64,000 nt of DNA, from positions 372,001-436,000 of the forward strand of contig NZ_CP019067.1 in the NCBI RefSeq assembly GCF_001989615.1, read 5' to 3'. A program made the translations under genes and the position numbers. Below are positions 712-1,528 of this stretch, in pieces. How positions within the stretch are numbered: position 1 is the stretch's first letter; every line of letters starts with the position of its first letter. This stretch comes from Halorientalis sp. IM1011 (GTDB lineage Archaea > Halobacteriota > Halobacteria > Halobacteriales > Haloarculaceae). The notes below the pieces were generated by a model, which was not told where the DNA came from, made no database searches, and was given only the letters and a program-made list of their open reading frames with translations.

Positions 712-774
712 CGCGCGAGTCGTCTCAGAGGCCGTTCAGACGGCTTATTTTGAATAATCGGGATAGAATGTCGC

Positions 775-870
775 TTAGAGATAGAGTACAACAGCTGCAC
801 CGATCAGGAAGAGGAGGAGCATGAGGAGTACTATCCAGTCCGGGAGGTCCTGAAGCGGGTCCTCGTCCAT
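775..870 (-). CDS. Small single-span membrane protein (31 aa)
   Basis: A 31-codon frame starts at ATG 870 and ends with TAA at 775. It has an acidic N-terminus (MDEDPLQDLPDW) followed by about 18 consecutive hydrophobic residues ending at the C-terminus, so it should sit in the membrane with the N-terminus outside the bilayer core. A GGAGG sequence about 10 bases before the ATG fits a ribosome-binding site, which is notable in a genome full of leaderless genes. It lies 57 bases downstream of the 172-residue gene on the same strand, so both are probably one transcript. Function unknown; could be a partner or membrane anchor of that protein. Confidence 0.6.
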   Translation of the reverse strand: MDEDPLQDLPDWIVLLMLLLFLIGAAVVLYL

Positions 871-927
871 TAGAACAGCCCTCCATTCAGACGTCCAGTT
901 GATGGCAATTTCATCGTATTATTAGCC

Positions 928-1446
928 TCAAATCCCAGGGATTCCACCGTCAAAGCCACCGCCGAAATCGTGTTCCTCGCCAAAGTTTTCCCTGCGTTTG
1001 ACGAGGAATGTGAATTCAGTCTGCTCCATCCCCATCCCGCGGCCCTGGGCAAACTTGTTCTCGACCTCGCGCCAGCCATCCATATCATCGATGCCACACG
1101 CCAGGGCGATTACGTAAGGATAATTGTCCGCGTAGTCCTCGAGCTGGCCCCGCAGTTTCCGCTTCTGGTCATTTGAGAAATGTCGCTTCATCTCGATTCC
1201 GACCGTATCGTTGACTACGACGTCACCACGAGCATTGCCACGTTCCCGGCTGACCACGTAGTTATCACCTCCACCACCGCCCAACATCCCACCCATCATT
1301 CCGTCACTATGCTCGTTGAGCTCTACCTCCAGAAAATCCGCTAATTCCTTTTGGAACTTACTTTCGTGGCCATAATCCTGAGACGGTCTCCATGCGTGGA
1401 GGAGATCGACCACGGTTTGATACGTTTGATTCCCTTGTCCAAACAT
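928..1446 (-). CDS. Hypothetical protein with PD-(D/E)XK-nuclease-like core
   Basis: This 172-residue protein is not a family I recognise by name. It has an N-terminal helix with YGHESKFQKELADFL, then RGDVVVNDTVGIEMK, and then a helix beginning QLEDYADNYPYVIALACG. The order Glu-helix, Asp in a strand, E-x-K in the next strand and a Gln/Tyr helix is the layout of restriction-endonuclease-like folds, so a nuclease or a dead relative is inferred. Gly/Met-rich loops occur near residue 50 and at the C-terminus. The DNA is visibly less GC-rich than its neighbours, which suggests transfer. A TATA-like box lies 29 bases before the ATG, so it is probably leaderless. Confidence 0.7.
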   Translation of the reverse strand: MFGQGNQTYQTVVDLLHAWRPSQDYGHESKFQKELADFLEVELNEHSDGMMGGMLGGGGGDNYVVSRERGNARGDVVVNDTVGIEMKRHFSNDQKRKLRGQLEDYADNYPYVIALACGIDDMDGWREVENKFAQGRGMGMEQTEFTFLVKRRENFGEEHDFGGGFDGGIPGI

Positions 1447-1470
1447 ATCGTACCTGTTCGTATCACTACA

Positions 1471-1479
1471 TGATAAAGG
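1471..1479 (-). promoter_or_regulatory. TATA-like box of the PD-(D/E)XK-like gene
   Basis: Read on the minus strand the sequence is CCTTTATCA. It is centred 29 bases before the ATG at 1446, the spacing expected for a leaderless haloarchaeal transcript. Confidence 0.5.
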
Positions 1480-1528
1480 TGCTGTCCGTGATAGAGAGTT
1501 TAAGTCGCGATCCGCCGGTCTCCGACCC

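Follow-up and report, generated by a model that had tools for sequence, protein, structure and literature searches.

The cassette and its genes

The window analysed here, a stretch of 64 000 nucleotides from Halorientalis sp. IM1011 (contig 1, 372001–436000), contains two short genes on the minus strand that form a cassette present in one copy in the source genome (whole-genome search). The first (928..1446) starts with ATG and encodes a protein of 172 residues, assigned below to the PD-(D/E)XK nucleases, with the residues E28, D75, E85-x-K87 and Q101xxxY105 and a Gly-rich, hydrophobic C-terminal tail. The second (775..870), hereafter the anchor gene, lies downstream after a spacing of 57 nt, also starts with ATG, and encodes a single-span membrane protein of 31 residues (MDEDPLQDLPDWIVLLMLLLFLIGAAVVLYL) belonging to what we call the LPDWI family. 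The anchor gene is preceded by a ribosome-binding site region (871..887, minus strand) with GGAGG approximately 8–12 nt before the ATG (ATGGAGGGCTGTTCTAATG). The initial annotation had predicted a single-span protein with a good ribosome-binding site on the same strand, and the GGAGG and the reality of the reading frame were both confirmed. Upstream of the nuclease gene, a segment conserved among cassettes (1447..1482, minus strand) contains the TATA-like sequence CTTTATCAT around 25–33 nt before the ATG, and on sequence grounds is a probable leaderless archaeal promoter; a sigma-70 promoter scan represents a bacterial model that is inapplicable to archaea.

Comparison of the window with its counterpart in genome G370 gave pS and pN values of 0.81 and 0.10 for the small reading frame, and of 0.77 and 0.07 for the nuclease. 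When one-span cassettes were compared pairwise, synonymous change was near saturation and nonsynonymous change was rare in both genes. Because synonymous sites are nearly saturated and nonsynonymous differences are few, both reading frames are, to judge from their substitution pattern, real genes under purifying selection. The pair had also been described as less G+C-rich than its surroundings: the G+C content of positions 775–1446 is 0.527 compared with 0.675 for the window, and is the lowest value among 634 equally long sliding windows.

The 57 nt between the two genes (window 871–930) are untranslated and end in GGAGGGCTGTTCTAATGG, which in frame would encode a GGLF-stop tail typical of the nuclease homologues. 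Possibly an older, overlapping C-terminus has been lost from the nuclease of the window.

Insertion site, spread and neighbours

Two congeneric genomes (G167 and G704) have an uninterrupted sequence from window position 728 to 1528, and therefore around 800 bp (729..1527, no strand assigned) were inserted in the window. The pentanucleotide CTCAG flanks the insert on both sides (724–728 and 1528–1532) and exists as a single copy in the empty site; this repeat could have arisen either by a 5-bp target duplication or by recombination at a microhomology. Apart from the 5-bp CTCAG on each side, a search of the insert for terminal inverted repeats found none. At the site occupied in G331, the cassette was absent from all 38 other Halorubrum genomes searched, with syntenic flanks in most of them, and the site occupied in G287 is empty across its genus. 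Similarity in DNA between cassettes at different sites starts approximately 35–46 bp before the nuclease gene and stops with the anchor gene, and in close relatives the upstream start of this similarity includes the TATA-like CTTTATCAT.

Homologues of the 172-residue protein were found by whole-genome search in 27 of the 391 genomes of the class, and in 15 of its 86 genera. The sister of the window copy is that of G370, which belongs to another family (88% identity), while a copy from the same genus is 78% identical. Broken nuclease copies are frequent (G264, G277 and G368), and in G264 a stop interrupts the nuclease gene (L053) next to an intact anchor gene of 32 codons. The cassette is thus very probably a mobile unit, inserted at this site and patchily distributed between haloarchaeal families. 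The horizontal acquisition proposed in the initial annotation is supported by the empty site in sister genomes, the patchy distribution and a tree that crosses families; the "defence or mobile-element" character also proposed there is one that we infer. Relatives were searched for in viral contigs and in phage and plasmid collections, and none was found.

The neighbours of the cassettes differ from site to site and are mostly housekeeping genes, such as those for GatB, diphthamide synthesis, the CCA-adding enzyme, thiolase, succinate dehydrogenase and the thermosome, so that there is no defence-island argument to be made. No other neighbour is conserved beyond a few loci, and its position there is scattered; neither mobility genes nor known defence genes are conserved beside the cassettes. 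A defence-island context was rejected given these neighbours, of whose proteins PADLOC matched 0 of 71. Convergent genes flank 14 of the 27 sites, whereas 21% of neighbouring gene pairs in those flanks are convergent (P = 3e-4; the count rests on mechanical calls of open reading frames).

Two loci have unusual surroundings. Halorubrum genomes contain many copies of a MITE-like repeat of around 245 bp, one of which (L040:9313-9558) is located immediately upstream of the cassette in G331; several genomes have the repeat at this position but no cassette, and the repeat and the cassette are therefore separable. In G223, a distance of 60.7 kb separates two identical cassettes (L036 and L037, at 572 kb and 633 kb); the duplication, which takes in at least 9 kb of flanking sequence, is a long segmental one.

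The nuclease and its exchangeable anchors

The order E–D–ExK–QxxxY is that of the PD-(D/E)XK nucleases, and the window protein has the ordered catalytic residues E...D...(D/E)xK of this superfamily, as the initial annotation had recognized. E28 and D75 do not vary among 20 close homologues, in which E85, K87, Q101 and Y105 are each retained in at least 90%; in a wider set of 40 homologues, comprising haloarchaea, Candidatus Nanohalarchaeota, Bathyarchaeota and genomes of the phylum that fall outside the class, E28, D75, E85, K87 and Y105 are all at least 90% conserved. A structure prediction had been proposed as the check on this assignment, and its outcome is nuclease-like. Two AlphaFold2 models (pTM 0.76 and 0.80) contain the alpha-beta-beta-beta-alpha-beta core, the predicted elements being helices 2–18 and 28–49, strands 65–67, 76–78 and 82–90, helix 92–108, strand 111–119, helix 122–134 and strand 144–150. 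In these models E28 opens helix 28–49, D75 precedes strand 76–78, and E85 and K87 are within strand 82–90.

The top structural matches are nearly all PD-(D/E)XK proteins (EcoT38I, PaqCI, BamHI, Can2, BspD6I, SgrAI, AF1548, NucC and XPF/ERCC1), at single Z-scores of around 7 that are inside the tool's stated noise range; the fold claim therefore rests on the conservation of the motifs and on the uniformity of the match list. Foldseek gave no match below E 0.02 against the PDB, and its best match in a viral library (E 0.004) was to an uncultured phage protein that is itself a PD-(D/E)XK nuclease. Taken together, sequence and model indicate that the 172-residue protein almost certainly has a nuclease fold with an intact active site.

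Sequence searches against solved structures returned chance matches only, and neither protein of the pair was matched by Pfam, NCBIfam, PHROGs or PADLOC. A distant relative (G595) scored 2.8e-4 against Pfam PDDEXK_3, just under the cut-off, and one homologue matched DpnII-MboI weakly (0.0098). By these searches the family is new and unnamed, and the annotation "no named family" holds for the 172-residue protein.

Whether the small reading frame accompanies the nuclease elsewhere had been proposed as a check, and it does. Alignable single-span proteins of 29–40 residues, sharing the motif (G/D/N)LPDW(I/L)V...FL.GA..VL, are found at seven other loci (the G223 duplicate being counted once). A profile of this LPDWI family detected seven loci in six of the 391 genomes (E <=2e-16), the next match coming only at 1e-3. 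The one-span partner is specific to the nuclease, since every LPDWI locus lies directly downstream of a nuclease gene. No report of the micro-protein motif was found in a literature search. A conserved protein of 31 residues, a size that annotation usually drops, thus gains a genetic context.

Other nuclease homologues are followed, after a gap of zero to a few bases, by an unrelated two-span protein of 53–61 residues; a search of the 391 genomes with its QPLSG profile yielded only four loci (E <1e-24), each of them next to the nuclease gene. In four homologues (L047, L049/L068, L069 and L052) the Gly-rich tail is replaced by a transmembrane helix fused to the C-terminus, and seven distant relatives outside the haloarchaea have an N-terminal transmembrane helix. 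Among distant relatives, G600 has a 34-codon one-span gene immediately upstream of the nuclease gene, and two others have two-span small genes adjoining it, each of these three being a single observation. A transmembrane segment is thus genetically linked to the nuclease in the form of one-span genes, two-span genes, and C-terminal and N-terminal fusions.

On the maximum-likelihood tree, branches with strong support imply a minimum of three changes for the one-span type and likewise for the two-span type, and, as reconstructed from sequence, the tree requires that anchor types were exchanged during the history of the nuclease. Since anchor types replace one another on this tree, what has been kept is the membrane association and no particular partner. 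The occurrence of fused as well as separate anchors provides a Rosetta-stone type argument for physical tethering, from which we infer direct binding. A recognizable adjacent anchor is absent in six homologue genomes (G137, G174, G307, G045, G088 and G012), and tethering is therefore not universal. These arrangements make it likely that the pair is a membrane-tethered nuclease module.

The N-terminal helices outside the haloarchaea belong to the archaeal PD-(D/E)XK proteins of loci L129, L133, L127, L128, L132, L135 and L136. From their sequences, N-terminally anchored proteins of this kind apparently constitute a wider group of membrane nucleases.

Possible function and related systems

The explanation that we favor, with a probability of about 0.5, is that this mobile two-gene cassette encodes a membrane-tethered DNA nuclease that cuts foreign DNA on entry. 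The anchor would bind the nuclease, possibly through the Gly-rich hydrophobic tail, which in fusion homologues is replaced by a linker and a helix, and would keep it on the cytoplasmic side of the membrane. The nuclease has no apparent signal peptide or hydrophobic export signal, and its domain is therefore most likely cytoplasmic. The tethered enzyme would then cut viral, plasmid or mated DNA while this is entering, and the nucleoid would escape by its location or through a trigger. Action of the nuclease against invading DNA has, in our estimate, even odds. An antiviral, anti-plasmid or mating-control role is a reasoned guess by analogy, made because of the mobility, patchiness and frequent decay of the cassette and the bacterial precedents for membrane nucleases.

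Membrane-located DNA defence is an established strategy, represented by SNIPE (PMC13190303) and by Zorya and Kiwa (reviewed in PMC12904381), and in these bacterial precedents a membrane location lets the nuclease meet injected DNA first (PMC13190303, PMC12904381). SNIPE (Nature 2026, PMC13190303) is bacterial and combines a GIY-YIG nuclease with DUF4041 in a single protein. Like SNIPE, the cassette would provide a membrane-bound nuclease at the cytoplasmic face, with self/non-self discrimination by location proposed here. In contrast, the nuclease is archaeal, its anchor is usually a separate, exchangeable micro-protein, and its defence role is putative; the chain has no Pfam match to GIY-YIG or DUF4041, and its fold and motif are those of PD-(D/E)XK. 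Kiwa is also a two-gene unit, KwaA/KwaB, of a membrane protein and a DNA-acting cytoplasmic protein (PMC12904381). However, KwaB binds DNA without cutting it, the anchors described here have one or two spans (one in the window), and the curated PADLOC models for KwaA and KwaB found no match. Zorya similarly couples a membrane component to a nuclease effector (PMC12904381), but the cassette is without the motor proteins ZorA/ZorB and without conserved neighbours. By analogy the cassette would work like SNIPE or Kiwa; it is a member of neither, nor of Zorya.

The core fold order and E..D..ExK are shared with known PD-(D/E)XK enzymes (BamHI, EcoT38I, Can2, BspD6I, AF1548 and ERCC1/XPF; Pfam PDDEXK_3 and DpnII-MboI), but none is close in sequence and no family model reaches its cut-off. 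The unclassified PD-(D/E)XK nucleases of archaeal "dark matter islands" are likewise narrowly spread (PMC4158269). Their description ties them to plasmid-like or viral elements (PMC4158269), a link by which they would differ from the cassette.

More tentatively, the family may define a previously undescribed class of archaeal immune module, in which one PD-(D/E)XK family has repeatedly been combined with interchangeable anchors (micro-proteins of 29–61 residues or fused helices) and self is consistently told from non-self by location at the membrane. The proposed module sits outside defence islands and would therefore have escaped island-based searches. The nuclease family and the arrangement are new, and the underlying principle of membrane location is already known. 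If the favored explanation is true, this small and mobile nuclease, which stands alone and has a swappable anchor, is an archaeal counterpart of recently described bacterial membrane nucleases, and searches of defence islands miss cassettes inserted amid housekeeping genes. That one enzyme has repeatedly been joined to different membrane anchors across archaea suggests that it guards the cell boundary against invading DNA.

A toxin-antitoxin or abortive-infection unit, in which the small protein keeps the nuclease as an inactive toxin at the membrane, to be freed when the membrane is disturbed and to kill the infected cell, would account for two small co-directional genes with often overlapping stop and start, and for a mobile, patchy cassette whose nuclease copies are often broken (as in G264, G277 and G368). 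It is nevertheless unlikely, because the partner proteins are mutually unrelated, a helix fused in the same chain would not be tolerated by a separable antitoxin, and motif-intact nuclease homologues exist without any adjacent partner, whereas a type II system has a cognate antitoxin beside every intact toxin (adjacent genes only being considered). The combination of tether and nuclease is, from general knowledge, also the anatomy of EndA-like enzymes that degrade or process DNA at the envelope for nutrition or DNA uptake. Such a function appears quite unlikely for a mobile, patchily distributed protein with a most likely cytoplasmic domain and no apparent signal peptide, whose listed neighbour families include none for competence or uptake.

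The naked cassette of approximately 0.75–0.8 kb, the empty sites in relatives and the bias of insertion sites to convergent genes would suit a selfish endonuclease of the free-standing homing type, which would propagate by cleaving the empty site and carry the membrane protein as a passenger. But different cassettes occupy unrelated sites, and the anchor, which a homing enzyme does not need, is conserved or replaced by other anchors and fusions, making this highly improbable. Finally, the existence of degenerate paralogues without catalytic residues and with fused helices (L055–L058) raises the idea of a catalytically retired protein with a structural or regulatory role at the membrane. This is very unlikely for the window protein, which together with its close clade keeps all catalytic residues under strong purifying selection.

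The relatives without catalytic residues are located at L055:9900-10553 (+), L056:9557-10204 (-), L057:9594-10076 (-) and L058:10029-10688 (+). In this type GIExKR is replaced by, for example, GIRFVTD or GIKIVGE, and the C-terminal two-helix membrane segment is kept. Unlike the active cassettes, the catalytically degenerate relatives in G203 and G214 show conserved synteny.
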